A DNA stretch of 53,048 nucleotides, taken from positions 1-53,048 of the IMG/VR virus record IMGVR_UViG_3300030090_003345; one strand, written 5' to 3'. The notes below the pieces were generated by a model. That model did not search any database and was not told the DNA's origin. It saw only the letters and a program-made list of their open reading frames with translations. A program made the position numbers and the translations under genes. The stretch comes from a virus. This document shows, one piece after another, positions 20,610 through 53,046 of the stretch (the first letter of the stretch is position 1; every line of letters starts with the position of its first letter).

Positions 20610-20625
20610 CTAATTGTCCTTGCGT

Positions 20626-23376
20626 TTACCTTACTACTTGGATACTCTGGTTGTTTCCAGCATTTGGAACTTGGCTTTGAATTGAAACAGATTGAGACTG
20701 TCTTATATCTCTAATTACTGGCTTTAAATCACCAAACAAATCTCCAATACTCTTACTGCCGCCCCGTGCATCTGTTAAAAATTTATGCCCATGAGTTGCT
20801 AAAACTACTCTTGCGTTGCCTGATTGATAGTTTGCAAGGTACGTAGCCTGACGCTCAGCTTCTGCATACATTTTTTCTAAAATAACTCTTACAACATCTA
20901 CTCTTGCTATTTTACCTAACGCGCCTATTGCCGCGTCAGCGTTAGCCCTATCCGCATCTGATAGACGACCATTAGGATCATTCATGGATGCGTAAGCATA
21001 GGCCGCGATAGTTAGATGGTACTTTAAAAGAGCATCGGCTCTTTCAGCGTCTGTAAATGCTGTATTTGTAGACTTAGCTTTGAACTCTTGTAGTGTCTTG
21101 TTTGCTTTTTCAAACGTTTCTGCGTCTCTTGGGTCATCTGTGTTAAAAAGGGAGTTTAATCGCCCCCCTTCCATAAGAGAATCCTCTAATGTTTTGAAAA
21201 ATCCAAAACCTCTTGTTATACTTGCCTCAAAACCTACTGTTCCTCCAGCACCAATTGCATCAAGACCCCCTCCAGCAGAATCTTTTAGTCTTTGGGCCTG
21301 TTTTTGTCTGTTACTTAAATCAGCGTAGGCGCTTGCTGAAGTATTTCCAGTTACTGCATCATATGTGGCTTGTCCAAGAGGTACTCCACTCCGTCTAAAA
21401 GTAGTTACTTCCTCTACATCAGCGGCAGGTATGGTTGCTTGTAAAGCGATAATACTATTATTCGTACTTCCAAAATACGTTAAGTTTTTCGCTAATTTGT
21501 TTACCTCCTGCGTTCCTATTTGACCGACAGGAAATCTAAGCACTGTTCTACCGCCTTCTGTTACAGAAAACGAATATATGCGTTCTCCAGTTCTTGGATT
21601 TTTTCTATTAAGTATTTTTTTTGTATCTACTAGTGCATCATAAGCTTGTTCAGCACTTTTATTAGTAGAAAAAGCACCTAGATCATCTGTAGAAACTCTG
21701 TACGCATTTGCAGAATATACCGCAGACGACGTATCGGGTGCTCCACTTATTATTGTACCTAAAGTATACCCATCAACATCACTTTCGTTTTCTATATCAA
21801 GAAAAGTTTGTACAACTTCCGGTTTAAATACTGTTACCGTACCACCATCACCAGCGTCTACTTGTGTGGTAAAAGCTGGGTTTTCTCCTAGAGTGGGGTG
21901 TTGATGCACATACAAGTTATTTGCTAATTCTGGCTTTGTAGGATGAAGACTAAAACCACTAGCTCTTGCGGGATTATTTACCACTGGCTCTAATACTTCT
22001 ATTGCTTGTTTTAAAAACGTCTCACTGTCAAATCTTTTTTTCGCATAAGGAAACTTATCTCGTAGATAAAGAGCAATTGGAACAGCGACATAGAAGTTTT
22101 CGTATTCCACGTCCTCCCCACCATTTTTTAACTTGGTTTTAGTTGAACCCAAATCACTTTTTTGCCACATTGTAGCCGTAGCTATTAGTTGTTCTGTAAG
22201 CTTTTCAAGTTGTCTTGTAGCATTATTCTCAATCATCGCATCTATAATTTTTTCTGTAAAAGCAGAATTAAACCCCTCTACATCACGTCCCGCTTTCACT
22301 GCTTCGTTGGTAGTTATTCCAGATTTTCTAATTAGGTAATCTTCCCCTTCCACCAAGTTTTTCATCTCGTCCCCTTTTACAGGAAGATCGGGTTTGAGAT
22401 AGTGTACTGTAAACGACCCGTCGTCAGGATAATTGTCTCTCTTTAGCAGATAATTAAAACCATACGCTACTCCGGTGGTTTGATCTGTAATCTTGGGATC
22501 GTTTTCAGGTTTAGACGTATCCTGTTTTCCGGTGACACCACGAACCATTACCGTAATTACACCGTCACCACCTATTTCCACAAACGCTCGGTTTGAACTA
22601 CCCGCATTTATAAGTTCTTCGTTTCGTCGTTGAGCCTCTGCCTCTGCTTCCTCTTTGCTTGAAAAACTTGAAGTCGAAACTACGTTGGGTTTGTACGATG
22701 GTTTTCCGTTTTTTTGTTCTATGCCTACCGTCGCCTTGAAAGTTGTGTCCGTATTTTCGTTCAACTTATTGGCGAGATCTTGTGCTAGTGCTAGTGCCGC
22801 GTCATACGACATGGGAGGTATTGACCTTTTAGCAGATTTAATTACATGACCGTTTTTTTCGGAGTCATACATAGAATAGAAAACTTGGTCCGTCTCTTTT
22901 CCAATAGTCTCATTTAAATATTGAGCACGGGCCTCTGCTAGGTCTTGGCTTACAGGTAGAGTTCTCTCTATTATTTTGTTATCAGGACCAACACTAAAGT
23001 CTATAATAGGCACACGTCTGTCAGCAAGACCTTCAGGAAACGGAATTCCACGAGAAGGTTGAATGTTGTACAGAGCATCTAACCTTCGTACTTCAGCTAA
23101 AGCAGTTTCTCTTTCTTGATCACGTTGTACTTGGTCTAAAGCATCTAGTTGTCTTTGTTTCTCAACATCAGCCGCTACTCTTACCTGTTCTTCAAATAAC
23201 TTTTGCTGTTGTTCTATTAGTTGTTGCTCTATAGCCGCTGTTCTTTCTTGTTCAGCCTGACGTTCAGCGGCGGATGTAAATTTACCCGTCTTTGTGTCGT
23301 AGATTATTCCACGGTCATTGTACTCTCCAACCGCACCTGCCGCAAAAGCTGTTAAAAAACTACCCAACATCTTCAT
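20626..23376 (-). CDS. Internal virion / ejection protein, 916 aa
   Basis: Large structural-type protein directly upstream of the giant one. The N-terminus has a short hydrophobic segment (MKMLGSFLTAFAAGAVGEY), then a Gln/Glu-rich coiled coil around residues 40-110 (EQQLIEQQQKLFEEQVR). The middle is mixed and the C-terminus Gln/Ser-rich (QSQSVSIQSQVPNAG). This fits an internal core protein that must cross the host envelope. No catalytic motif seen. Start is 17 bases inside the 202-residue gene upstream. Confidence 0.7.
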   Translation of the reverse strand: MKMLGSFLTAFAAGAVGEYNDRGIIYDTKTGKFTSAAERQAEQERTAAIEQQLIEQQQKLFEEQVRVAADVEKQRQLDALDQVQRDQERETALAEVRRLDALYNIQPSRGIPFPEGLADRRVPIIDFSVGPDNKIIERTLPVSQDLAEARAQYLNETIGKETDQVFYSMYDSEKNGHVIKSAKRSIPPMSYDAALALAQDLANKLNENTDTTFKATVGIEQKNGKPSYKPNVVSTSSFSSKEEAEAEAQRRNEELINAGSSNRAFVEIGGDGVITVMVRGVTGKQDTSKPENDPKITDQTTGVAYGFNYLLKRDNYPDDGSFTVHYLKPDLPVKGDEMKNLVEGEDYLIRKSGITTNEAVKAGRDVEGFNSAFTEKIIDAMIENNATRQLEKLTEQLIATATMWQKSDLGSTKTKLKNGGEDVEYENFYVAVPIALYLRDKFPYAKKRFDSETFLKQAIEVLEPVVNNPARASGFSLHPTKPELANNLYVHQHPTLGENPAFTTQVDAGDGGTVTVFKPEVVQTFLDIENESDVDGYTLGTIISGAPDTSSAVYSANAYRVSTDDLGAFSTNKSAEQAYDALVDTKKILNRKNPRTGERIYSFSVTEGGRTVLRFPVGQIGTQEVNKLAKNLTYFGSTNNSIIALQATIPAADVEEVTTFRRSGVPLGQATYDAVTGNTSASAYADLSNRQKQAQRLKDSAGGGLDAIGAGGTVGFEASITRGFGFFKTLEDSLMEGGRLNSLFNTDDPRDAETFEKANKTLQEFKAKSTNTAFTDAERADALLKYHLTIAAYAYASMNDPNGRLSDADRANADAAIGALGKIARVDVVRVILEKMYAEAERQATYLANYQSGNARVVLATHGHKFLTDARGGSKSIGDLFGDLKPVIRDIRQSQSVSIQSQVPNAGNNQSIQVVR

Positions 23377-23968
23377 TCTCCTCAGGCTCAGTCACTTCTA
23401 CAACATCTCCTTCCTGTAGCTCCGCATCAATAAATCCAGAAGGTATGCGGGGTTCACTAGGTGGTTTTTTCATACCAGCCTGTGCTTTCGCTGTTATTGC
23501 ATTGTCACGATCCAACATAAACTCATACAAATCAGGATTCCTAACTTTCATTAAGTCAAGAATTGTTTCATCAGACATACCTTCATCAGGCACAGCATCA
23601 GAGTCCTTCGCGTACAAATGTGCAGGAATACCGTATTTATCTGCCATACCCATAAGATAAAACGCAATTTGAGGTTTAATTAATTCAGCTACGTCTACAG
23701 AAAACTCCCCGTACATAAACCCCGCCATAGATATGGACGTTGCAATCTCTTCAGCAGACACACCTGCTAACATAAGCTTTCCAAAAGTAGCCTCTACTTC
23801 TGGCTGTTCCATCTGATCTAAAATGTTAGAAACAACAGCGTTGGGGTCAGTTTGTTGTGGAGGACTTTCCCAATTCCATTTTTGTGGCTCTTGTGTTAGA
23901 GACCATCCGGGAATAGCTTTTTGCATTCTATCTGGATTAATTTTTGGAGTAGGGCCAGTGCGATCCAT
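23360..23968 (-). CDS. Virion-associated protein, 202 aa
   Basis: Pro-rich start (MDRTGPTPKINPDRMQKAIPGW) followed by a helical core with small residues (LMLAGVSAEEIATSISMAGFM) and an acidic end (VEVTEPEENED). This pattern resembles conserved proteins located among the internal virion proteins of marine podoviruses. No enzyme motif. It overlaps the following gene by 17 bases, so expression is coupled to it. Confidence 0.6.
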   Translation of the reverse strand: MDRTGPTPKINPDRMQKAIPGWSLTQEPQKWNWESPPQQTDPNAVVSNILDQMEQPEVEATFGKLMLAGVSAEEIATSISMAGFMYGEFSVDVAELIKPQIAFYLMGMADKYGIPAHLYAKDSDAVPDEGMSDETILDLMKVRNPDLYEFMLDRDNAITAKAQAGMKKPPSEPRIPSGFIDAELQEGDVVEVTEPEENEDVG

Positions 23969-23976
23969 AGTTTATC

Positions 23977-24483
23977 TCACTTTTTAATTCTTGAAATATT
24001 AGCTGTGCCTAACTTTGTAGTTAGGTCTTTTGTGCTAGGAGTTACAGCGGTTATTCTACTAACAGAAGCTTTAATGGTGGGTACACGACTATTTAAAGTT
24101 CTAAAAATACCGTTTAATACGCGGGGGTCAGCGTTCTGAAAGTACGCATCAGTCTGCGTAGAACGACCCCTTGCGGCGGCTACGCCTGATTGAAAATTTA
24201 AAGGAAGAGTGCTCTGTTGGGGTAACTGATAACCTTGAGGTTGACCACCCCCGCCTCCACCTAGTGCTTTTGTTGCAAAACCTGTAGCAAGATCCTTACC
24301 TGTGCCTTTAATGGCTTGATAGCCGAAACCAAGTAAACTACTGCCCCCAGCACCTCCTGCTGAATACGTCGCATCAAAGTTTTGAAAAGCACTAACAGCA
24401 CTTTGAACATAGCCCGACCCAAAGGCCCCACTTCCTACGTACGCATTATACCCGTTTGTTATTGCTTTCTTAAATAAACTCAT
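23977..24483 (-). CDS. Glycine-rich virion protein, 168 aa
   Basis: I place the start at ATG 24483, preceded by TTAGGAAAATACTC; a TTG at 24501 in the same frame is less likely. The N-terminus (MSLFKKAITNGYNAYVGSG) leads to a Gly/Ala/Gln-rich linker (ALGGGGGGQPQGYQLPQQS) and a basic Ser/Thr-rich C-terminus. Composition suggests a flexible structural protein. Placed between two predicted internal proteins. No family recognised. Confidence 0.6.
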   Translation of the reverse strand: MSLFKKAITNGYNAYVGSGAFGSGYVQSAVSAFQNFDATYSAGGAGGSSLLGFGYQAIKGTGKDLATGFATKALGGGGGGQPQGYQLPQQSTLPLNFQSGVAAARGRSTQTDAYFQNADPRVLNGIFRTLNSRVPTIKASVSRITAVTPSTKDLTTKLGTANISRIKK

Positions 24484-24493
24484 GAGTATTTTC

Positions 24494-25849
24494 CTAACCA
24501 AATATAGTTCTAATCGCGGCTTTACCTAGTTCCCCAGCAAGACCATTACGTAACTGCGTATCGTAGACATCCTGATTTTCAGCTATTTCCATTGCTAACA
24601 TGCCTAGCTCATGTTCTCGTTGTACGGCACTTTCTGACATATTAAATATCCACGCCGCTTCATCACGGTACTTCTGCCAAAGTTTGTTTTGAGCCGATTG
24701 AGTTATGTTAAGTAAGTTTTGTGTATTAATTCTGTTAGTTTCGTTTTGAAGAGCAGTATTTGCTGTATTAATGTCTCGTCTCCACACAGCGTTTGATTGA
24801 TCTATTTGAACCGCAAGCTGTGTTTCAAACCTATCTCTTGCGTCATTAACAGAAGCAACAAACTGTTTCATAGCATTGCCTTCATTGACATTAAATTGCT
24901 CTTGAGCGGCAAGTCTATTGGCGTTGGCGTTAGCAACTTGAACTTGCATTTCAGCGTAAAATTGATCTACTTGCGCTTGAGAAGTTGCGTTAAATTGACG
25001 AGAGGCATTGACTGCCGCCTGATCTGTAAACATTTTTTGTGTTTCGGTTTGAAAATTTAACTCCAAAGCCCTCTGTTCTAGTGACAGGTTTTGCATGTCT
25101 AAATTTAAAAACGATTGTGCATTTGTCACAGCCGCCTGTCTACGGAAGTCTAAATTAGATTTATCCATTGCGGCATAAAGCGCGGCATTTTGTAAAGTTG
25201 CCTGTTGGCGATTACTAAGGTTAGTTAAATCTAAAGTAGCGTATAGTTGAGCATCTTGAGACGCAATAGGAATACCAGCTTCCATCACCGCTTGGGTAAT
25301 AGCCGCCGCCGCCATAGAGCTTGCCCCTAGACCTCGTTGTGCCATCATGGCACCTATGGTTCTTACCGCTGGTGCCGCCCAAGGGGGAGGAGGTTTGCCC
25401 TCTTCAAATGATTTGAATAACTCCCCCAGTTGGTATTTAATAGTAGACTTTTCAGAAACAACGCCTTGTTCTGCATCCACAAGACTTTGTTCAGATACTG
25501 TTCCGACAATATCCCCAATTAAAGCTTCTTGGGATAACTTACCTTGTGTTGTTGTAGCCTCCGGGGTGTTAGGTGACGCGTAATTCTCGTAAAACGCCGC
25601 TGATACTTTTTGAGGAACAGGAACTTCTAAATTATCTACTTTAGTTTGCTGAGGGGTAATTGTTAAATCAGGTGTAGTCACATCAGTTGTGATTGTCTCA
25701 CCTTCTTCTAATTTTTTTTCAGTGGGCGTAAACGCTGTTCCAGCAGGTAACTTTGGATCAACAGAAGTAATATCAGCCTGTTCTTTTACTTGTGAAACAA
25801 GCTCTTCTGGTTTTTTAATTTCTTGAATGATTTCTGCTTGCGTTGCCAT
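24494..25849 (-). CDS. Helical internal virion protein, 451 aa
   Basis: Begins MATQAEIIQEIKKPEEL, with a Thr/Pro-rich N-terminal third. The second part (residues ~150-420) is a long run of helices rich in Asn, Gln and Ala (NRQQATLQNAALYAAMDKS, QVANANANRLAAQEQFN), with several near-repeats of a QAAVxNAxxF pattern. Such proteins are common in marine podoviruses as virion components, probably part of the ejected core. Start supported by position after the holin-like gene; no catalytic motif. Confidence 0.65.
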   Translation of the reverse strand: MATQAEIIQEIKKPEELVSQVKEQADITSVDPKLPAGTAFTPTEKKLEEGETITTDVTTPDLTITPQQTKVDNLEVPVPQKVSAAFYENYASPNTPEATTTQGKLSQEALIGDIVGTVSEQSLVDAEQGVVSEKSTIKYQLGELFKSFEEGKPPPPWAAPAVRTIGAMMAQRGLGASSMAAAAITQAVMEAGIPIASQDAQLYATLDLTNLSNRQQATLQNAALYAAMDKSNLDFRRQAAVTNAQSFLNLDMQNLSLEQRALELNFQTETQKMFTDQAAVNASRQFNATSQAQVDQFYAEMQVQVANANANRLAAQEQFNVNEGNAMKQFVASVNDARDRFETQLAVQIDQSNAVWRRDINTANTALQNETNRINTQNLLNITQSAQNKLWQKYRDEAAWIFNMSESAVQREHELGMLAMEIAENQDVYDTQLRNGLAGELGKAAIRTIFG

Positions 25850-40345: not shown

Positions 40346-42775
40346 TTACGGTGCAATGCTAAGTTGGAGACGTACTTCCTTACCATTTTCATCGTAAAGC
40401 GAAGGTACATTACCAATACCCTCAGTCCGAACAATATCCATTATCCTTTCAAAAGCCCGGACAAATTCTTTTTCATCTGGAATTTGTTGACGGAGAATAC
40501 CGCCATACTTGTTATTTTCTAAATCAATTTTTGATTCTTTATTTATTGCTTGTAATTCACTTATGTCCATTTTTTTTGTTACAGGATTTAAAAAAGAGCC
40601 ACGAAGAGGGTTATCTTCACTATAAGCATCAATAGCGGATTGAGTTCCGTAAATGTGTTCTACTTCTTTAAAATCGGCGTATGCTCTTCCTAAAGGGCCG
40701 TAAAGTCCTCCTACTAAACCGTGCCTAAAAGTATCTTCAATTTTATCTGACGTGTTGTGCATTTCACGGTAATTTGTAGAATAGCTAAACGCTTTTTCCA
40801 TAGCGTCCGTATTTCTAGTAATAGCTGATCCAGCTTGCTCAAAGTAATTTAATAAACTTATGTTTGGATTTTTAAATTTACGGTAATGAGTAATGTCTTC
40901 TAAATCAAGTCTAGTATCCCCGCCCATAGCCGCACTTTGAACTGCTTGTTCTGGGGCTTGCCCATTTTCTTGAACACGCTTTTCAACCTCTGCTTTACCC
41001 CGGTTATTTATTTTATTTAATCTATCGTATCCAATTACTTTGGCTAGTTCAGGAGGTATCACAACTTCACCGCGTGAAACGGCTAAAGACACTAAGTCCT
41101 CTCTAGATATTTTAGTGTCATCTTGATTTATGTCAATACCTTGCTTTTCAGCTTCAGCGACAGCCTCTAATATCATTTTTTTAACATCGGCTGATCCCAT
41201 GAACTCAACAGCGGCGGCATTAAGAATAAAAGTTCCTTCTGGCACATCTATATTAACATCATCTGCTACAGTCATTCCCTCGGGTAATCCCTCAGGTTCT
41301 TGTCCTACAAACCCAGCTTGATTTACCACAGGAGCATCACTGGCTGGACCGACCGGGGCTTGTCCACCCTCTGCGAAAGGACTGCTGTAAGAAGCATCAC
41401 CTGCGGCATCTGCATCAGTTTGTCCTGTATCTCTTCCTCTATCACTATCGTCGTCTTGCCCTCCGATTAGTATTTCTTGGAATCTTTGATATTCTTCTGG
41501 TCTGTCTAAAGCGGCTTGTTGTACAGAAGCTTGAGCACGTTGTTCTAATCTATCTAAAGCACCTTTATTCTTTTGGGTATCTTCTTCAAGTTTATCTTCT
41601 GCAATCTTGCCCCGGATACTTTCAAATTGACTTTTTGGCATAACGCCAGTTCCGAAATTTGCTCTGCCTTGATTAACTGGTTTTCCGTCAGAGGTAGTAA
41701 CAGCACCTCCACTTCCAGTGGCATAGCCCGTAACTTCTCCGTCAACAATTACTTCCTTAGCAACCAACTCCCCATTACGTAACGCGTCTATTAACGTGTC
41801 ACTAACAGATTCACTCATACCTAAAGAGTTAATTACGTCTAACGTTTCTTCTTCACCGTATATATCATTTACTAATCCTAGATGAGCTTTAATATCCCGA
41901 GGAGTTGTAGCTGTTTCGCCTTTACTGTTTACAAACTTTCCATCCTCTGTAAGTCCCCCAGAACCATAGACAAAAGCTTTTAATTCTTTTCCGAACCCCT
42001 TTGTTCCAGCTTTTTTATTAAAGTCCACAGTTTTTGGGTCGTACCCCAAGTTTGCGGCGTAACGGTTAAGCATCATTTGAGGGTCGCCGCTAAACGTTCC
42101 CAACACTCCAAACCCTAATGATATATTTGCAGTAAGTTTTTGAGGAACAATCGATAGTAATTGACCTTTATGATAAAATTGATGATATCCCGGTTGGTTT
42201 TGCTGTATTTTATCGTAAACATCGTACTGTTTGCGGAGGTTCATTCGGGATATTGACCCTAACATTCCTAGGGGAACAAACACCTCTTTTCCGTAGGGGT
42301 CGTACGCAGTTGTTCCTCCTATAAGGTCGGGTAAAAAAGGCACAGGCGGGGCTACAGATAAAGCCGTGCTGTATAAAACATCTGATGTTTCTTTACGGGG
42401 GTCGCCAAACATTCCAAAACCCCTGACTGCTGTGCTATCAGCCGTTGCCGCTTCTCCTCGCGTTATCCCTCTTGCAACAAGTTCATTTAAAGTAGAATCT
42501 GCGGTAGACTTGACAGTGCCATCAGGTTCCATAGCAAAACTTCCCGTGGCAAAAGGGGAAGTACCAGTAACTCCGGTTAAATCTTGGAATCTAATAGGGC
42601 CTACATCAGATCCAGAAACACTTACCCCACTGTCGTCGGTGGAAATAGTTTCACCTTGCACTGGTGGGGTTGGCAGTTTTTCAAAAAACCGTCGCTGTGC
42701 CCGTCGTGCTCTTCTACCCCGCATAAGGGTATCGTACACTGAGTATTGTGATGCTAAATTACTTACCCGCGCCAT
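40346..42775 (-). CDS. Large virion-associated protein, 809 aa
   Basis: Begins MARVSNLASQYSVYD, then an Arg-rich stretch (RGRRARRAQRRFF). The central half is disordered-looking and Asp/Gly-rich (GGQDDDSDRGRDTGQTDADA). After that comes the domain VNIDVPEGTFILNAAAVEF ... REDLVSLAVSRGEVVIPPE, a repeated 'V-x-GE-F/V-I' module I recall from virion proteins of marine phages. The C-terminal 200 residues are helical (DTFRHGLVGGLYGPLGRAYA). No enzyme seen. Between portal and scaffold, so likely a head or portal-associated protein. Confidence 0.65.
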   Translation of the reverse strand: MARVSNLASQYSVYDTLMRGRRARRAQRRFFEKLPTPPVQGETISTDDSGVSVSGSDVGPIRFQDLTGVTGTSPFATGSFAMEPDGTVKSTADSTLNELVARGITRGEAATADSTAVRGFGMFGDPRKETSDVLYSTALSVAPPVPFLPDLIGGTTAYDPYGKEVFVPLGMLGSISRMNLRKQYDVYDKIQQNQPGYHQFYHKGQLLSIVPQKLTANISLGFGVLGTFSGDPQMMLNRYAANLGYDPKTVDFNKKAGTKGFGKELKAFVYGSGGLTEDGKFVNSKGETATTPRDIKAHLGLVNDIYGEEETLDVINSLGMSESVSDTLIDALRNGELVAKEVIVDGEVTGYATGSGGAVTTSDGKPVNQGRANFGTGVMPKSQFESIRGKIAEDKLEEDTQKNKGALDRLEQRAQASVQQAALDRPEEYQRFQEILIGGQDDDSDRGRDTGQTDADAAGDASYSSPFAEGGQAPVGPASDAPVVNQAGFVGQEPEGLPEGMTVADDVNIDVPEGTFILNAAAVEFMGSADVKKMILEAVAEAEKQGIDINQDDTKISREDLVSLAVSRGEVVIPPELAKVIGYDRLNKINNRGKAEVEKRVQENGQAPEQAVQSAAMGGDTRLDLEDITHYRKFKNPNISLLNYFEQAGSAITRNTDAMEKAFSYSTNYREMHNTSDKIEDTFRHGLVGGLYGPLGRAYADFKEVEHIYGTQSAIDAYSEDNPLRGSFLNPVTKKMDISELQAINKESKIDLENNKYGGILRQQIPDEKEFVRAFERIMDIVRTEGIGNVPSLYDENGKEVRLQLSIAP

Positions 42776-42992
42776 TAGACACTACCTTATTATGATTTTC
42801 TTTAAGTGATAGAAGGGTTTCCAGTAAAACCATCTTCCCCTGCAACTGGAACATTTCCCGTTCCGATTGTGCCGTCACCAACCCCCGAAGCGTCAACTGG
42901 TGGAGGTCCTGAAGATACTGGGTTAGAGCCTCCCATGACTGTGGGTGATTGATTAGGGGCGACACCCTCTGGGCTTGGTCCTTGTTGAGCAC
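42759..42992 (-). CDS. Small helical protein overprinted on portal C-terminus, 77 aa
   Basis: Reads in another frame over the last 191 bases of the portal gene. GTG 42992 has GAGG eight bases upstream. The product is much more protein-like than the portal tail it overlaps: two or three helices (QSWEALTQYLQDLHQLTLRG, EMFQLQGKMVLLETLLSLKE), like small head proteins found just after portals in other phages. Its stop lies 17 bases inside the next gene, a coupling typical here. The portal tail in the same DNA is low-complexity Gly/Pro/Ser. Confidence 0.65.
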   Translation of the reverse strand: MLNKDQAQRVSPLINHPQSWEALTQYLQDLHQLTLRGLVTAQSEREMFQLQGKMVLLETLLSLKENHNKVVSNGAGK

Positions 42993-44889
42993 CTTGTATA
43001 CCTCTTAATATTTCTGCGTATAATTGAGCTTCATCTAAACTATTAACAAGTTGATCTGGATCAATGTCTTGTGCTATTGCAATTTCTCTCACTAAATTTG
43101 GTAATTTAATAAATGGTGCAAGAGTGGGGTTTGCCACTGTTTGCAGTAATGAAGTTAAACGCTGGGTTCGCACTTCTTTTTGCATTACAGCCGCAGTGCC
43201 ACGAGGTTTAATTTCTAAATCACCAACAATATCGGGTTGGGAATCATTGAATTGCATGTTCCATTGGAAGAGAGATTCTCCTAACGGTTTTAACAAGTAA
43301 TCATCAATATTTTTAATTACAGTTTTTATTGATGCTGAACCAGATTGTAAGAGCATAGAAAGACCAGAGGCCGTTCTCCCAGTTCCAGTGACCCCTGTCT
43401 GACCGTGCATGATGCTAGGGATACCTGTCTCTTCATCAGCAAGCTGACGCGATATTTGATACATCTGAATGTTTTCTGGTGCGGTGTTTGGAAACTTCAG
43501 TCCATTAATTGCCGTTCCAGTTACACCGGACTGCCGTCTAAATATTTTACCCGGGAAAATATCAAAGTTTTGACCGGGGACAAGGCTAGCTTCATCAACA
43601 TCAAATACGAGGTTACCAGCAAGTGCTAAGTTATCAATAGCCATCCGAACATGACCATTCATTAGCATCTGTGCATCTTCCATGTTTTCAGCTACACCTA
43701 CTCCCCAAATTTGGTAAGGATTAATTTCATACGGGAAAGCAAAAAACGGTATACGTGCTGGGGTAAAAGGATTTAATACACAACGTAAAACTTGTGTGCC
43801 ACACACCCAAGCGTTTACCTGCACCTGATCTAACTCACTGATATTTTCGGGTAAATCTAGACCTACTTCATACGCAAATTTAGAATCTAAAACACCCCAA
43901 TACTCTAGAACTTCATATCTATTCTCTTGGTAATACGGCTCTGTTTCATCTTCTCTAATAGTATCCTCGTAATACTTGTCCTCATAATTAGGACCTTTCA
44001 CTATTACTTCAGCTATTGCTTCTTCATTAAAGTAAGGTAGGTTAGTCAAATTACGTAGCTGTTGACGATTTAAACGGTGCCGTTGAATGACATATTCACA
44101 ATCGTCTATGCTAGTGGCTGAGGGGTCTGGATGGAAATCCCAACATGAAACATACTCAAAGCGGGGAACAACCTTTTCCATAGGATCGTACATCCTTTCC
44201 TCGCCTTCACGAGACCATCGGTGTACTTTTTTGTAGTAATTTAGAGGGCCTTTGATAATACCTGTGCCAAGTAAAGCAGACTCAAAGACTGCGTTACGGA
44301 GAACATTTACTGCGTTAGTATCTAATAGTTGATCGTGCATTGTCTTTTCTAAAAGACGTGCTGATTCTGAAGCAGGTTCTACTTGAGGACCTCCATCCTT
44401 AGATGGCCCCTCTACAGCCCCTGTTGCTTCATATGGACCTAACCTAGTTGCTCCCGGCTCTAACTCCCTGCCATCTCCCGGATATCCGAACGGATCAATA
44501 AGTTCATCAATCGGGGATGGTGCGTGTGCAAATTCTGCAATTCCTTCTGGAACCGGGGTTGGTTCAACGACTATAGGGAATTTTTTATTTGCAAAAAGAA
44601 TATCTACAATAGCACCATACGCGGCTAACACTTTTGTTTTAGTTATTTTAATAAATACCCGGGACCGTTCTGATTCTCGGTATTGAGTCGATGAATCGTA
44701 GTAGCCCCGAAAATTTTTATATGCCGTTAACCAACGTTGTTCAAAACTTCTGCGTCCGTTTTCAGAGTCTTCAAATTTATTTTGAATATACCCGGCTAAA
44801 CCGGGCATTTGCTCTCTTGCATCCGCTATATCTACAGAAGTTTCGTCGTCAGTTAGCTGTGCAAAACCACCTTCAGTACCGTAGGACAT
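42802..44889 (-). CDS. Portal protein, 695 aa
   Basis: Dodecameric DNA-entry channel, podovirus type. Typical features: N-terminal RRSFEQRWLTAYKNFRGYYD, membrane-like wing region with KITKTKVLAAYGAIVDILF, YVSCWDFHPDPSATSIDDC, and the stem/crown region with YQISRQLADEETGIPSIMHG, TGRTASGLSMLLQSG and IKNIDDYLLKPLGESLFQW. The last ~60 residues are a Gly/Pro/Ser-rich tail overprinted by another gene. Lies downstream of TerL as expected, but with a recombinase-like gene between. Weak ribosome site (GGATAATTAACT). Confidence 0.88.
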   Translation of the reverse strand: MSYGTEGGFAQLTDDETSVDIADAREQMPGLAGYIQNKFEDSENGRRSFEQRWLTAYKNFRGYYDSSTQYRESERSRVFIKITKTKVLAAYGAIVDILFANKKFPIVVEPTPVPEGIAEFAHAPSPIDELIDPFGYPGDGRELEPGATRLGPYEATGAVEGPSKDGGPQVEPASESARLLEKTMHDQLLDTNAVNVLRNAVFESALLGTGIIKGPLNYYKKVHRWSREGEERMYDPMEKVVPRFEYVSCWDFHPDPSATSIDDCEYVIQRHRLNRQQLRNLTNLPYFNEEAIAEVIVKGPNYEDKYYEDTIREDETEPYYQENRYEVLEYWGVLDSKFAYEVGLDLPENISELDQVQVNAWVCGTQVLRCVLNPFTPARIPFFAFPYEINPYQIWGVGVAENMEDAQMLMNGHVRMAIDNLALAGNLVFDVDEASLVPGQNFDIFPGKIFRRQSGVTGTAINGLKFPNTAPENIQMYQISRQLADEETGIPSIMHGQTGVTGTGRTASGLSMLLQSGSASIKTVIKNIDDYLLKPLGESLFQWNMQFNDSQPDIVGDLEIKPRGTAAVMQKEVRTQRLTSLLQTVANPTLAPFIKLPNLVREIAIAQDIDPDQLVNSLDEAQLYAEILRGIQGAQQGPSPEGVAPNQSPTVMGGSNPVSSGPPPVDASGVGDGTIGTGNVPVAGEDGFTGNPSIT

Positions 44890-44895
44890 AGTTAA

Positions 44896-45105
44896 TTATC
44901 CGTATAGAGAGTTATCGTCAGCCATTGTAAATAAAGAGGCATCTACTGTTGTTTTAGTTTGTACTTTAGGTGCATCTTCTGTTAAAACGTCTGTTTTAGC
45001 CTTTGTGTCGAACTCTAGTCCTTCACGATAAAGATTGTTTTCTCCTACATTTGTATCCACTGTCTGCTTGTCAGCATTCATAATTTGTGCTTCACCATAG
45101 TTCAT
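44896..45105 (-). CDS. Small acidic hypothetical protein, 69 aa
   Basis: Short Asp/Thr/Lys-rich, disordered-looking product beginning MNYGEAQIMNADKQTVDTN, with no cysteine or hydrophobic core. It starts in an ATGA overlap with the recombinase-like gene and ends 6 bases before the portal start, with GGAGAAT before its own ATG. Could be an assembly factor or a virion component; nothing further can be said. Confidence 0.6.
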   Translation of the reverse strand: MNYGEAQIMNADKQTVDTNVGENNLYREGLEFDTKAKTDVLTEDAPKVQTKTTVDASLFTMADDNSLYG

Positions 45106-46853
45106 GGCTGTATTCTCCTTTGCTCATCAAATAGTTCACGCATTTGCGCTTCTTGCTCAGTCTCTGATAGAAACTGCTCTTTTGTTTGTTCTGCAATATC
45201 GGCAGTTTCTTCAGCAACTAAACTCCCCACATCTTTTGCGGTAACCGCAAGACCATATGGAGTAAATTCCTCTGCACCAAACTCTAGAGCTTTTTGCCCA
45301 TAAGCTAAGAAAGGTGCTCTGCCCTCTTCAATCAACTCCTCTGCTTCTGCCTTTTTTGTAGTAGCGGCGAGTCCTACTCCGACTACAGGTAAACCTCCTA
45401 CGATAGTTTTTGTTGTTTTAGAATCTATTAAATTTAAAAGAGCTTGTTTTATATCCCTTGCCTCGCCATCAGACATTTCGTATTTAGAGGGAGCCTCTTT
45501 TGCTGATTTTGGAGTTTTTGTGGTTTGAGAAGTTTCTATTTCTGTGGGTTTTGCCAAATCTGGATTAGCGTCTAGTAGTCGTTGATTTTCTTCTCTTATT
45601 TTAAGCGTAGCCGCTGTAATTTCTTCTCTACGTTTCTCTAAAGAACCCGGGACAGTTTCTTGATATTTTTGTACCGAATCTAAATTAACTTCCATAGACT
45701 GAGTTCTTGGCACAGAACCACTGCCCTCTTCAGGTAATGAATCTAAAAAGTCGTCACCAAGAGATGGTACAATTTCATCGTCAGTAAGAATAGCTAAAGA
45801 AGGTACAATCCGACGCGCATCTTCATTAATGTACGTTTCAGGAACGCCTACATCTGCAAGATACTGACCCAAACTTGTGGTTTCGCTGTACCCCACTACT
45901 TTTGCATCTGCTAAATTAAGAGCACTTTTTATTCTAGCTAATTTAGTTTTTGTTTTTACGTATTTTTCTTGTTCTGTAACACCTGCACGACCGGCTACAA
46001 ATTTTTTGTCTGCCGCAGAAAAGTTGCTTTCATCCAAAATAGTTTCAGCATTATTTCTTAAATCACTTAAAGTAAAAGGTTTAGAAGTTGTTAAACCGTC
46101 AATGTCCTCGTATACAGAAGGAGATACTCCTGCTTTTAATGCCGCATTTACGTTAGCATCTAGAGTGTCTTTATTTGGAAACAATGGACCTGATGTTCTA
46201 TTTTCTAGTGCCATCTCTACAAAAGCTCTAGCACCGGGACGAAGAAACACTTCTTTTAATTGTTTTGATTTTCCTTCTACAAAGGTTAATCGGCCTGTAT
46301 TAGAATCGTAATTTTCAATAACTGCATTCGATAAGTCAGTTTGACGCAACCCTGAAAACAGTTTTATACCTAAATAAGCTTTTTCCTGTCCCTCTAAATT
46401 AGTTAGCACATCCTTTATTTGTTTATACTGGTCACCGGGCTGGCCTATTAAAGTTAGACGAGCACGATAGTATTTATATCCCGATATAGTTTGCCAATCG
46501 TCCCCCATATACTGCTTTAAACGAGCTTGCATGTTAGGAAAATCACGTAATCCTGCATCATTAAACACTGCGTTAAGGCGAACAAGCGCGGTTTGCATAC
46601 CGGAACGTTTTCCGGTTAGTTTTTTAGAAAAAGGACTATCTTCAACAAATTCAGCTATGTACGGGCTATCGTCTAGATTGTCTATGGGCGTTTCCAAAAG
46701 GTCTATACCCTGACTAGTTTTAAAGCCTTCCATTTCTTTGATAATTTTACCAACTTCAGATTTTACTCCTTTCTTATCGGTATTTTGTGCGTGAATTTCT
46801 AAATTTTCACGCAACGTTTTCTTTCTGAGTTCTGCCTTTTTTAATTTAGCCAT
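45102..46853 (-). CDS. Tyrosine-recombinase-fold protein with extra C-terminal region, 583 aa
   Basis: Residues ~80-150 resemble the SAM-like core-binding domain (GMQTALVRLNAVFNDAGLRD). Residues ~155-300 follow the catalytic domain: FSGLRQTDLSN (R170), FVEGKSKQ (K195 or K197), FTLSDLRNNAETIL (R266), VAGRAG and EKYVKT (Y298). R266 to Y298 is 32 residues, as in XerD R247-Y279. The two His of the active site are Ser263 and Arg289. The last 280 residues are not recombinase: an acidic linker, a hydrophobic glycine stretch (IVGGLPVVGVGLAAT) and Glu-rich helices. Lies between TerL and portal, so virion or packaging role rather than lysogeny is likely. Confidence 0.7.
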   Translation of the reverse strand: MAKLKKAELRKKTLRENLEIHAQNTDKKGVKSEVGKIIKEMEGFKTSQGIDLLETPIDNLDDSPYIAEFVEDSPFSKKLTGKRSGMQTALVRLNAVFNDAGLRDFPNMQARLKQYMGDDWQTISGYKYYRARLTLIGQPGDQYKQIKDVLTNLEGQEKAYLGIKLFSGLRQTDLSNAVIENYDSNTGRLTFVEGKSKQLKEVFLRPGARAFVEMALENRTSGPLFPNKDTLDANVNAALKAGVSPSVYEDIDGLTTSKPFTLSDLRNNAETILDESNFSAADKKFVAGRAGVTEQEKYVKTKTKLARIKSALNLADAKVVGYSETTSLGQYLADVGVPETYINEDARRIVPSLAILTDDEIVPSLGDDFLDSLPEEGSGSVPRTQSMEVNLDSVQKYQETVPGSLEKRREEITAATLKIREENQRLLDANPDLAKPTEIETSQTTKTPKSAKEAPSKYEMSDGEARDIKQALLNLIDSKTTKTIVGGLPVVGVGLAATTKKAEAEELIEEGRAPFLAYGQKALEFGAEEFTPYGLAVTAKDVGSLVAEETADIAEQTKEQFLSETEQEAQMRELFDEQRRIQP

Positions 46854-48548
46854 TTAATATCCGAAAGTTGCATCTTGAGGTTGAAAGGTGCTGTTTTTTA
46901 TATCCCGAAGAGATTTATGAATGCTGACGTATCCAGTTGTTCTTGTCATGAGCATATAACGCAATGCATCATACGCGTGGTCTTCAGCTTTCGTGTCTAC
47001 ATCTTCACTGTTTGTTTTAGAGAGGGGTATACCAGCTAATTGTTTTATTATGTTAGTGCATGTACTAAAGAACTTTACTGTTGGTTCTTTTGTAAATTCG
47101 TTGTCTCCAAGACGACGATGTATTTCCATTTTGCCAGCAATACGACTACGATCAGACGGAATCCACCTACACCCACAACGAATCATAGTTTCGGCAATAG
47201 AAGGTCCATAGCCTGTTTTATTCCAGCATGATGAATCTAAAACAGTGTAATGAGGTTTAGGATCATACTGTTCTAATTCTAATATTTTAACGGCGAGTTG
47301 CTCCGCTGTAAAGTGCTTTACATAAAGCTCTCTATACACCCATATGTTGTTGTCCCAGTCGATTGCACCCCAGAGTACGCACGAAGGGCTTGCATAGCCG
47401 TAGTCTGCCGCTCTGATACGCGGCCAGTTGGTGGGCAACTCAAATGGATCAGCCACATGTTTGATTTTGTTAAATTCAGGAAAGGCACATCCTTCTGCCA
47501 CATCCCAATCGCCATCAAGTAATCTTTTTCTTTCGACTTCTGGGAGAGAAAGGAGCATTGCCTCATACTGTCCATCTGCCATGAGATATGGGTTGTCGGT
47601 AAGTCGTGCGGGTACGAATTTTCTCCAGTATAAAGGTTGACCGTGCTTGCTGTGACCCTCTGGGTATATAAGTGGCTTTTCAGATTCAATATCGCTGGGG
47701 ACGAAGCGAATGCCGGGTTCACCTTGGTCGATGTACATCTTCTTGACCCACCAGCCGCCAACGCCTCCGGGGTTAGCTGTACAGCGCATAGAGAGATTTG
47801 CGGAGAGTTCAGAGTCCGTGCTCCGTAAACGTGACCGTAGATATTCCCATACGTAGGGGGTGGGATACTGTGTAATTTCATCGATGGCTATCCAATTGAA
47901 GGCTTGTCCCTGATATCGGGTAACGTCTTTGTCTTTGTCAAGATAACTAAACCAGATAGTGGCCCCCGACGGGAAATGCCATGTGGATTTAGACTCTCTA
48001 AAGGAGGCACCGGGAAACGCCTTGGGATAAAGTTGTTTAGATTTGGAGATGAGTTCAGTCAATTCATCCAGAGTGCGACGGAGTAATAAACCACGATGAT
48101 TAGGATTATGGCAATAACGGAGAGGATCTGCCAAGAGAGCAAAACTCTTTCCTCCACCAGCCGCACCGCCGTATAATACATCTTGTTCAGGTGCTGACAG
48201 AAAGTCTTCTTGTGGTCCATCATTCGGTTTGAATACAACTTCAGATTCTCCCACAAGCTTTTTAACTGCGTCTGGTAAGGCATTTAAGTCTCCTACATCA
48301 ATTACTCGTGAATTTTTACCTTGTAGTGCTGTTTCTACTTTTTTAGCGGCACTCTCTCTTTTTTTAACTCTTTGTATTTGTTTATCAGCCGCCGCTCGTT
48401 TCTTTTCGGCTTCTTTCTTAGAACGGCGTATACTCGCCTGTGTGGCTCTCCGGGCTTTTTCGGCTGTGGAGAGGTTATAACGAGCTTTAGGCGCGTCAGG
48501 GTCCTTTCTAGGCCGTCCACGGGGACGTTTTAGGGCTTCACTGCTCAT
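46854..48548 (-). CDS. terL: Terminase large subunit
   Basis: Packaging motor and nuclease. Walker A is YGGAAGGGKSF (126-136), Walker B WIAIDEITQ with D223/E224, then the coupling motif in MRCTANPGG (C-motif). Nuclease acidic residues are in AADYGYASPS (D382), TVLDSS (D438) and DVDTKAEDHAYDALRY. The first ~85 residues are an extension absent from standard TerL: an AT-hook-like RPRGRPRKDP at 8-17 and a Lys/Ala-rich helix (RRSKKEAEKKRAAADKQIQ), which may bind DNA or TerS. Start at 48548 overlaps the TerS stop by 11 bases. Confidence 0.93.
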   Translation of the reverse strand: MSSEALKRPRGRPRKDPDAPKARYNLSTAEKARRATQASIRRSKKEAEKKRAAADKQIQRVKKRESAAKKVETALQGKNSRVIDVGDLNALPDAVKKLVGESEVVFKPNDGPQEDFLSAPEQDVLYGGAAGGGKSFALLADPLRYCHNPNHRGLLLRRTLDELTELISKSKQLYPKAFPGASFRESKSTWHFPSGATIWFSYLDKDKDVTRYQGQAFNWIAIDEITQYPTPYVWEYLRSRLRSTDSELSANLSMRCTANPGGVGGWWVKKMYIDQGEPGIRFVPSDIESEKPLIYPEGHSKHGQPLYWRKFVPARLTDNPYLMADGQYEAMLLSLPEVERKRLLDGDWDVAEGCAFPEFNKIKHVADPFELPTNWPRIRAADYGYASPSCVLWGAIDWDNNIWVYRELYVKHFTAEQLAVKILELEQYDPKPHYTVLDSSCWNKTGYGPSIAETMIRCGCRWIPSDRSRIAGKMEIHRRLGDNEFTKEPTVKFFSTCTNIIKQLAGIPLSKTNSEDVDTKAEDHAYDALRYMLMTRTTGYVSIHKSLRDIKNSTFQPQDATFGY

Positions 48549-48942
48549 CTACAACGATTTCTTGCTTGGAGGGAAGTAGGACGACTCCGTGAACAGCCTG
48601 TATATTGACATTATGAGTTTCTTGCTTACCTAAACCCACACGATTTAACAGAGATTCAGCGGCTTGAAGGCGAATATTGTCGCCACGTTCTATTTCTGGA
48701 GCATCTATAGTAGAAATTAGCTTATTTACTGCTTTTACAGCCCCTCCTGCAAGCACACTGCGGGATCTTTCTATAATTTCAGTAGCTAAACTCTCTTTTA
48801 AGTGCCCTATGGAGCCTGAAGAGTACCCCGCCACCTCACAAGCACGGCTAAAATTACCCCCGTTATCAAAAAGAGCATCTAAAAAAATTTTTTGCTGTTC
48901 ATTTAGCTCTCTTTTACGAGTTTGCTGGGGTAATAAATTCAT
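48538..48942 (-). CDS. terS: Terminase small subunit
   Basis: DNA-recognition part of the packaging machine. The N-terminal LNEQQKIFLDALFDNGG followed by NFSRACEVAGYSSGSIGHLK is a helix-turn-helix typical of TerS, then a helical oligomerisation part (RLQAAESLLNRVGLGKQET) and a beta C-terminus (VHGVVLLPSKQEIVVDEQ), which usually binds TerL. Length 134. First gene of the late operon, with two promoters upstream; GGAGAAAAT precedes its ATG. Confidence 0.82.
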   Translation of the reverse strand: MNLLPQQTRKRELNEQQKIFLDALFDNGGNFSRACEVAGYSSGSIGHLKESLATEIIERSRSVLAGGAVKAVNKLISTIDAPEIERGDNIRLQAAESLLNRVGLGKQETHNVNIQAVHGVVLLPSKQEIVVDEQ

Positions 48943-49884: not shown

Positions 49885-50361
49885 TTAGCTCCCGTTTGAT
49901 ATTTTCTTGAGTGCGTTATGCACATCTGCAGAATACACAAAGCTTTCCAAATGTACAAGCTCTATCCCACGGTAGTGCCGTTCCAACATACGACAGACCT
50001 TGTCGATGTTCTGGTGATGTAGAGCAACCCGCTTAGGTCTGCCGGCCAAACGATACACCAGTGGAACATGGAAACGACTCCGTAGGTGCAAGATATACTG
50101 ATAGGCAGTAGATCGGGTGACACCTAAGCACAAAGCAATATGCTCTACCGACAAAGGTACGTCCGACTTGTGCAAGAGGTCCAAGATTTTGAAGTGGGTT
50201 TTCCCCCACTGGTTCACCGCCTTAGGTGCAGAAAGCTCCAAAGCTTTGACATCATCCGCTAGGCCCGCCAGTGTCGAAACGATGGAGACTCTAGCGACTC
50301 CTTCCAACTTAGAGGCCAAAGCTGACAACTCGTCAGCGATACGCTTTTGTTCTATGTTCAT
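49885..50361 (-). CDS. Winged-helix transcriptional regulator, 158 aa
   Basis: The true start is ATG 50361 with GGGAG nine bases upstream; the frame is open to 50592 but that overlaps two other genes. The N-terminal half is a helical region (RIADELSALASKLEGVARV). The middle has a helix-turn-helix followed by a wing: LSVEHIALCLGVTRSTAYQ, then YILHLRSRFHVPLVYR and GRPKRVAL. This is the only clear DNA-binding regulator of the window and could control early-to-late switching at the palindromes in 1570-1609 and 49122-49293. Target is inference. Confidence 0.75.
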   Translation of the reverse strand: MNIEQKRIADELSALASKLEGVARVSIVSTLAGLADDVKALELSAPKAVNQWGKTHFKILDLLHKSDVPLSVEHIALCLGVTRSTAYQYILHLRSRFHVPLVYRLAGRPKRVALHHQNIDKVCRMLERHYRGIELVHLESFVYSADVHNALKKISNGS

Positions 50362-50366
50362 GACAA

Positions 50367-50462
50367 TTAACTCCCAAAAATAGCGATTAATATGATGTAA
50401 CAAACTAAGATACCCAAACCAACGCATCCTAGTCGTACGATCAATCCGAATAGTTCCAACAT
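50367..50462 (-). CDS. 31-aa single-TM peptide
   Basis: ATG 50462 shares TGATG with the stop of the DUF932-like gene and has GGAGG seven bases upstream. The product begins MLELFGLIVRLG and is one hydrophobic helix (GLGILVCYIILIAIFG). The regulator start follows six bases after its stop, and the regulator ribosome site overlaps its last codons, so the three genes are translated together. May act at the host membrane; function unknown. Confidence 0.65.
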   Translation of the reverse strand: MLELFGLIVRLGCVGLGILVCYIILIAIFGS

Positions 50463-51484
50463 CAAGCGGCCTCCAGTGCCAACCACTGAGGAGACTCCAA
50501 CACAGCACGAACGTCAGCATTACGCTTGAACTGGACGCGATGTTGTTGGGCGTTACCCCGACTGGTTTGAAGCTCGGTAGTAGTGCCGTCATCGTTCTGA
50601 CGTTCCCACGTTGTATCAGTGTGAGTCGCCCAGTGTGTCAAGGCGTTATAACCCGCCCACAGAGTACGGCCAAGCTCCCTTTGCTCTTCATTAAAACGAT
50701 ACGTCAAGTAGTCCAAGAGTCGCCCATTGACTCGGGTAGTATTGTCACTGGATAACTTACGGCCTTCGCCTGTCAGCCGGCAAACTGTGTTCTCTAGGAT
50801 CTCAGTCCATTGGCTAGGGTGCAGTTCGATGGTCATCCATTCGTCCATTTTTTCCCGGTGGTTCATAAACATGTCAAGCCCTAGGTTAGCTTTAGCAATC
50901 ATCGCACTAGGAGACAGACTGGCTGTGTGCTTGCGTTTTTGGTGGTACGCCTTCTGACCCCCGAACACCATCGTATTACGGCAGTAATCCCGATAAGCCC
51001 CAGAGAACACCTGAAACGCCCACGACATGTCGACGCTGTTAACGATGTCGGCTCTAGCCGTGATGCCATCACCTTTGCCGTCGATATCAAACGTCAGGTC
51101 GTTGAAGTAAACAGCGCGGGAAGCTTTGCGGCCTCCCTCGTACAGCCGATCTACTACCGTCAGGTTTCCAGTGGGCAAGCTCGCATTATCCACGATGGTA
51201 TTACCTTGGTGACGAAATACCTCACCGTGGTCGACTAGCTTGTACGTCTTAGCGACTGGCGGAGAGTCCAACACCTCACCGCTAACGGTATTGCGTAAAG
51301 CAAAGAAACCATCAAACGGCTTGTGAGTAAAACCGCCAGAGGTCGGCGTTTTTGTGTATAGGGGAATCTTGCTGATTTGCCCTCGCTCTGCGAACAAGTC
51401 AATACTGGTCACGTCATCGTGCACCATCTCAAGACCATTGGGTATTTCACGGATCACCCCGTCCGGTATGAATTGACTCGACAT
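50462..51484 (-). CDS. DUF932-like phage/plasmid protein, 340 aa
   Basis: Start ATG 51484 with a GGGGGG ribosome site; more residues are open upstream but lack one. The sequence has the family order: AKTYKLVDHGEVFRHQG, then VFSGAYRDYCRNTMVFGG, then KRKHTASLSPSAM, and ending with GYNALTHWATHTD. DUF932 proteins are widespread in phages and plasmids and their function is not established. Lies between unknown genes in the early block. Recognition is from memory of the pattern. Confidence 0.75.
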   Translation of the reverse strand: MSSQFIPDGVIREIPNGLEMVHDDVTSIDLFAERGQISKIPLYTKTPTSGGFTHKPFDGFFALRNTVSGEVLDSPPVAKTYKLVDHGEVFRHQGNTIVDNASLPTGNLTVVDRLYEGGRKASRAVYFNDLTFDIDGKGDGITARADIVNSVDMSWAFQVFSGAYRDYCRNTMVFGGQKAYHQKRKHTASLSPSAMIAKANLGLDMFMNHREKMDEWMTIELHPSQWTEILENTVCRLTGEGRKLSSDNTTRVNGRLLDYLTYRFNEEQRELGRTLWAGYNALTHWATHTDTTWERQNDDGTTTELQTSRGNAQQHRVQFKRNADVRAVLESPQWLALEAA

Positions 51485-52835: not shown

Positions 52836-52953
52836 CTTGAATTCTCCCTAAATTTATTTGCTCTTGTACTGTCGATAAATAACTGTGTGTGTCTTCGTCG
52901 TTTGCTCTCCAGTCTGCTAAAGCTTCTGGATGGCAAATTGTTTTTGGTTTCAT
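52711..52953 (-). CDS. Basic helical hypothetical protein, 80 aa
   Basis: ATG 52953 with GGAGCAACA upstream, inside the terminal repeat; in the circle it follows the 45-residue gene of 14-151. N-terminal half includes ICHPEALADWRANDEDTH, the C-terminal half is a charged helix (RLKEAIERENRRCREARKKR). Its last 125 bases overlap the first 42 codons of the cysteine-rich gene in another frame, an unusually long overlap in which both frames look coded. Confidence 0.65.
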   Translation of the reverse strand: MKPKTICHPEALADWRANDEDTHSYLSTVQEQINLGRIQDELNHNTLPKKQKKLDGILALRLKEAIERENRRCREARKKR

Positions 52954-53046
52954 TGTTGCTCCTAATCAGTTTGGTCAATGCAAATAATAACATATTCGCT
53001 AAACAACGATTTTACCTGTTCAACAGAATCTGCAATTACATAAATG
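52949..53046. repeat. Right copy of 98-bp terminal direct repeat
   Basis: Exact copy of bases 1-98. It carries the 3' part of the 45-residue gene whose complete copy is at 14-151, so that second copy is truncated by the window end. The start codon of the 80-residue gene (52711-52953) lies in this repeat. The single mismatch at 53047 lies just beyond the identical stretch and may be an assembly-end error. Confidence 0.95.

Follow-up and report, generated by a model that had tools for sequence, protein, structure and literature searches.

Why would a marine phage keep a tyrosine-recombinase-like protein among its packaging genes, and what could such a protein do there? The window analysed here is a stretch of 53,048 nucleotides, positions 1 to 53,048 of the IMG/VR virus record IMGVR_UViG_3300030090_003345. 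Its ends share 98 identical bases in direct orientation (1–98 = 52949–53046), and this overlap makes it a complete circular-mapping genome of ~53 kb. The relevant genes lie in the order terS-terL-X-orf69-portal. Gene X begins at 46853, directly beside the end of TerL at 46854, and the two genes overlap or nearly abut. The window is placed among the HMO-2011-type phages (SAR11, Roseobacter, and SAR116 hosts) by the similarity of its TerL (~48–59% identity) and portal (~44–52%) to theirs. Between X and portal lies a small acidic ORF, which is conserved independently of the X allele. The only regulator-like gene noticed is an HTH protein at 49885–50592 (HTH_11 3e-5, IclR-like).

A sequence-only reading had described the ORF at 45102–46853 as a degenerate tyrosine recombinase, retaining the fold and nucleophile but without both active-site histidines, and placed between TerL and portal. 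The ORF is indeed found there and encodes 583 aa on the minus strand, a strand that the reading had not given. The features of the locus are collected in Table 1.

Table 1. Features of the gene X locus in window coordinates.
Feature	Position	Strand	Evidence
Gene X, 583-aa tyrosine-recombinase-family protein	45102..46853	-	ORF, profile matches, fold, 121-member conservation
Terminase large subunit (TerL), directly upstream of X	46854..48548	-	PHROG terminase match 2.5e-60
Putative small terminase subunit	48538..48942	-	Position; HTVC033P annotation of equivalent slot
69-aa ORF, conserved, overlaps X stop, outside swap	44896..45105	-	ORF list, relatives
Portal protein, downstream of X	42802..44889	-	SU10_portal 4e-25
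X residues 1–130, N-terminal helical domain, core-binding (SAM-like) type by position	46464..46853	-	pLDDT mostly 72–96; two-domain alignments
X residues 131–310, catalytic domain	45924..46463	-	pLDDT mostly 90+; profile region 160–310
X residues 311–435, extra helical region after catalytic domain	45549..45923	-	pLDDT up to 98 for 311–390, lower past 400
X residues 436–583, low-confidence tail, recombined between alleles	45105..45548	-	pLDDT largely <50; tail shuffling; dN/dS 0.26 in last 45%
R170, box I Arg codon	46344..46346	-	121/121
K195–K197, catalytic Lys, choice alignment-dependent	46263..46271	-	K195 >=90% (65-member set); K197 112/121
S263-x-x-R266, box II, Ser for His, Arg kept	46056..46067	-	R266 121/121; 263 variable
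R289, box III position, His in other subfamily	45987..45989	-	H 62 / R 59 of 121
Y298, nucleophile	45960..45962	-	121/121

The family of X is not apparent from one sequence. Single-sequence searches of PHROGs and phmmer searches of the PDB returned nothing useful, and desmocollin and similar weak PDB matches are attributed to chance. The same was true of tblastn with five X alleles against 50,697 phage records. With X as the query, no match was found in isolate phages, and a pattern search of IMG/VR was also empty. The window protein alone scores 15.8–18.9 bits against PF00589, below the cut-off of 27.1, so a family profile was needed, although members in G005 and G425 exceed that cut-off. Among 65 members, 14 match PF00589 (best 2.8e-9) and 17 match the PHROG integrase family phrog_1. 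The profile built from all 65 matches the archaeal XerC-like structure 4a8e (E 6.3e-9), XerD (1.4e-7), Tn1549 Int (6e-7), and lambda Int (3.4e-6), with the XerD/XerC-like match covering residues 160–310.

The AlphaFold model of X has a mean pLDDT of 78, with residues 1–400 mostly above 80. Its structural matches are Tn1549 Int (Z 12.4), Brujita Int (11.3), lambda Int (10.8), and XerH (10.4), followed by Cre (~9), SroF (9.0), topoisomerase IB (7.9), and YopR (7.5). The alignments with Tn1549 Int, XerH, and Cre extend over two domains. The C-terminal part, which had been called foreign to recombinases, indeed contains no known domain that could be found. By profile, predicted fold, and catalytic residues, X firmly belongs to the tyrosine recombinases, as had been proposed.

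Whether X is still an enzyme is best judged from its active site. The residues named earlier, R170 (SGLRQTDL), S263, R266 (SDLR), R289, and Y298 (EKYVK), are all in place, and the distances from R266 to Y298 (32 residues) and to position 289 (23 residues) were confirmed. Among 65 relatives, the mean column identity is just 14%, and only Met1, R170, F225, R266, and Y298 are invariant. In a set of 121 relatives with a mutual identity below ~80%, the three catalytic residues R170, R266, and Y298 are each present in every member. The box-II position 263 is unconstrained (S, Y, T, A, K), and the box-II His is missing from the whole family. Position 289 is occupied by His in 62 members and by Arg in the other 59. 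The window protein has Arg289, which it shares with its subfamily, in place of the box-III His/Trp. The loss of both histidines thus holds for the window protein but not for the family, where 62 of the 121 members keep His at 289. In a tree of the catalytic domain built without column 289, His and Arg are separated by one change (support 84); Arg289 is therefore an old, fixed subfamily state and not a sign of decay. The word “degenerate” does not describe this family, in which the R-K-R-(H/R)-Y set is kept while the rest of the protein falls to ~20% identity.

X is under purifying selection. Within alleles, dN/dS is 0.15 overall, 0.074 in the first 55% (the recombinase part), and 0.26 in the last 45%; the value for TerL is 0.05. 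A relic or degenerate gene is ruled out by the low dN/dS together with the conservation of the catalytic residues, and this conservation favours an enzyme over a protein that is only structural. X appears to be catalytically competent, with Tyr298 as the putative nucleophile backed by R170, the Lys, R266, and H/R289. These data describe a divergent and probably active family of tyrosine recombinases in a genomic setting that is new for them.

Relatives were collected by anchoring on TerL and portal, which gave ~230 IMG/VR contigs of the window's clade. In all 171 clade contigs with both flanks, a single ORF of 500 aa or more fills the X slot, so the fixed place among packaging genes holds throughout. 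The first 79 proteins from this slot form a single BLAST-linked family, and full-length members range from 519 to 851 aa. X is present in none of the 154 contigs of two sister clades, where the gap between TerL and portal is short, with small ORFs or none. X is thus strictly present in one clade of uncultured marine phages. The same interval takes insertions in other relatives too (L082, L083, L085); it carries small ORFs in HTVC phages and phoH with an SGNH hydrolase in phiM6.

The gene is always present, but its sequence is not constant; this exchange of alleles, which the sequence-only reading had not noticed, is the strongest feature of the locus. In pairs of phages with at least 90% identical TerL, the median identity of X is 26%, and that of portal is 81%. 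In one pair (L057/L058), TerL is 100% and portal 98.9% identical, and X is 22% identical; the divergent stretch opens no more than ~6 bases from the X start and closes 17 bases before its stop. The limits of the swap agree to within ~30 bases in five further pairs. The whole X ORF has repeatedly been replaced between nearly identical phages, and dozens of divergent versions are in circulation. When the H/R class at residue 289 is mapped on the TerL tree, 33 changes are counted, of which well-supported branches require at least 29, and shuffled data give a mean of 33.4. On the portal tree, there are 27 changes, and 29.0 in the shuffles. The class is randomised relative to both flanking genes. 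An X allele can be much younger than its backbone (dS 0.24 in X, 1.16 in TerL) or much older (1.2 and 0.03). Recombination also occurs inside X among N-terminal parts, cores, and tails, so that tails up to 98% identical are joined to different cores; the tails fall into several classes with no single common motif.

Chimeric assembly is an unlikely source of this pattern. Both flanks match around different X genes in L057/L058, identical TerL-X pairs were assembled from separate metagenomes, in some cases along with an identical portal (e.g., L004/L006, L046/L048), and dS within an allele can lie far below or above that of TerL.

Variation of this kind was also observed elsewhere in the genome. 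In the closest genome pair, X is unrecognisable, the replication genes are mostly 97–100% identical, and the MCP is 99% identical, and late proteins of 916 and 1824 aa and parts of an 809-aa protein are also hypervariable. Compared with G001, the window is mostly 97–100% identical except for late proteins of 1824, 916, 202, 174, 451, and 809 aa (15135–25849, 40346–42775). The large late proteins are hypervariable in other genome pairs as well, and those of 1824, 916, and 809 aa have no PHROG match. A hypervariable set that includes X would fit a virion-delivered, host-facing protein.

What, then, could X do? It is probably an active, late-expressed, site-specific recombinase whose alleles are swapped. 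It is the only enzyme of this type in the phage and lies within the run of packaging and head genes, so it would be made late. It would cut and rejoin DNA, and its alleles would differ in their DNA target, so that a swap would change specificity. Since the flanks are constant across alleles, any cognate phage site would have to be part of the ORF itself; otherwise, the target would be on the DNA of the host or of a rival phage. Predicted DNA-binding surfaces that differ beside constant flanks argue for a target that would change with the allele. Two points stand against activity: the absence of the box-II His from the whole family and the Arg carried by about half of the members in place of the box-III His.

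The single most likely role for X, although still a tentative one, is that of a temperate-phage integrase with attP inside its own coding sequence; swapping the gene would then move the phage to another integration site. Host integration is what tyrosine recombinases like X most commonly carry out, and allele swaps of integrases are well known from temperate phages. The catalytic residues are conserved, the limits of the swaps coincide with the ORF, and no second PF00589 protein was found in the window or in 25 related records. The HMO-2011-type relative CRP-3 integrates with a separate int (PMC9038755). One contig, L302 (6840–7425), runs through TerL and the X N-terminus and, near X codon 61, continues as a yejE-like gene for a host ABC permease. 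The junction has a short common core of 8 exact bases (11/12 against a related host genome), a length not expected from chance ligation. However, L302 is the sole phage-host junction inside X, three other contigs with the same allele are intact, and the GC content is 48% in the phage part and 33% in the host part; this mismatch makes a chimera more likely than an attL-like junction. No close match to the host gene was found among 397 Pelagibacterales genomes, and the nearest one, at 91% protein identity, is in one other alphaproteobacterial genome. The late-operon location also speaks against an integrase, as do the searches for traces of integration. A TerL scan of 84,980 species genomes, in which the hosts may be unsampled, found no prophage of the clade, and its only nine contigs all belong to related phages outside it. 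No tRNA-like segment that could serve as a tRNA-type attP was found in or near X, and neither were an attP, an excisionase, a repressor, or other recognisable lysogeny genes. Contig ends, a sign of trimmed prophages, are not in excess in X. Synonymous conservation gave only translation-start and gene-end signals and no universal in-gene att site, with no constraint at codons 49–72.

Other roles are less probable. X might travel in the virion, enter the cell with the ejected genome, and act on the DNA of the host or a competitor; its variable tail would serve for docking, and rare alleles would gain, which would maintain the diversity. We consider this rather unlikely, although X lies near portal in the late run, co-varies with the 916- and 1824-aa late proteins in the closest genome pair, and has alleles that are randomised against their neighbours with H:R near 1:1, as under frequency-dependent selection. 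Against it, the tails fall into several classes without one common motif, and X may change while portal stays (L057/L058). An AGF/QGF-type motif does occur at the C-termini of portal (42802–42865) and of some X tails in some genomes. The shared “GF” peptide was rejected as a docking tag, since it is confined to those genomes and is possibly due to overlap with the start of the next gene. An unlikely variant is a locus resembling a mating type, in which every clade member needs one of two deep X classes with their dozens of alleles. X would then be virion-delivered or would target a site in its own gene, and frequency-dependent selection would act through whole-gene swaps while the late operon stays stable. 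It is doubtful that X processes the phage genome, by resolving multimers or by cutting near the packaging start together with TerL. Its position directly downstream of TerL, overlapping or nearly abutting it, and the implied late expression would suit such a role, but ~22%-identical alleles beside identical TerL are hard to square with a dedicated partnership, and the sister clades do without X. The circular map with its 98-base direct end overlap disfavours a hairpin-ended linear genome and, with it, a telomere resolvase. It is very improbable that X only binds DNA and that its recombinase fold is catalytically dead, as in the phage regulators YopR and SroF; both are among the fold matches of X, but its catalytic residues are its most conserved positions.

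HMO-2011-type phages dominate in the ocean. Those of their groups without a recognised integrase have been called probably obligately lytic (PMC9038755). A universal and previously unrecognised tyrosine recombinase in one clade reopens this view. X is fully shuffled against neighbours that are only bases away, yet its active site stays fixed. This combination suggests that strong selection, either diversifying or frequency-dependent, acts on a DNA-cutting enzyme, and such cases are rarely so clear in phages. The family comprises more than 100 divergent recombinases, whose DNA sites may differ from one member to another.

Known systems resemble X in part. XerC, XerD, and XerA, its best profile matches, share the catalytic domain and the order and spacing of R-K-R-H/R-Y, whereas X is without the box-II His, has ~280 extra C-terminal residues, and is a hypervariable late gene of a phage. 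The integrases of Tn1549, lambda, and Brujita are the best structural matches and have the same two-domain fold; X differs from them in its late-operon place, where attP, excisionase, repressor, and prophage were not found. The HMO-2011-type phage integrase, for example CRP-3 gp02, is likewise a tyrosine recombinase of related phages, but it has 357 aa and lies upstream of the replication module, and X has 583 aa and lies between TerL and portal. A possible target within the gene, suggested by the swap limits and the uncertain L302, recalls the suicidal integrases of archaeal SSV-type viruses, although Phage_integr_3 (PF16795) is not among the Pfam matches of 65 members. YopR and SroF are DNA-binding phage regulators with a recombinase fold like that of X, but in X, the active site has been kept.
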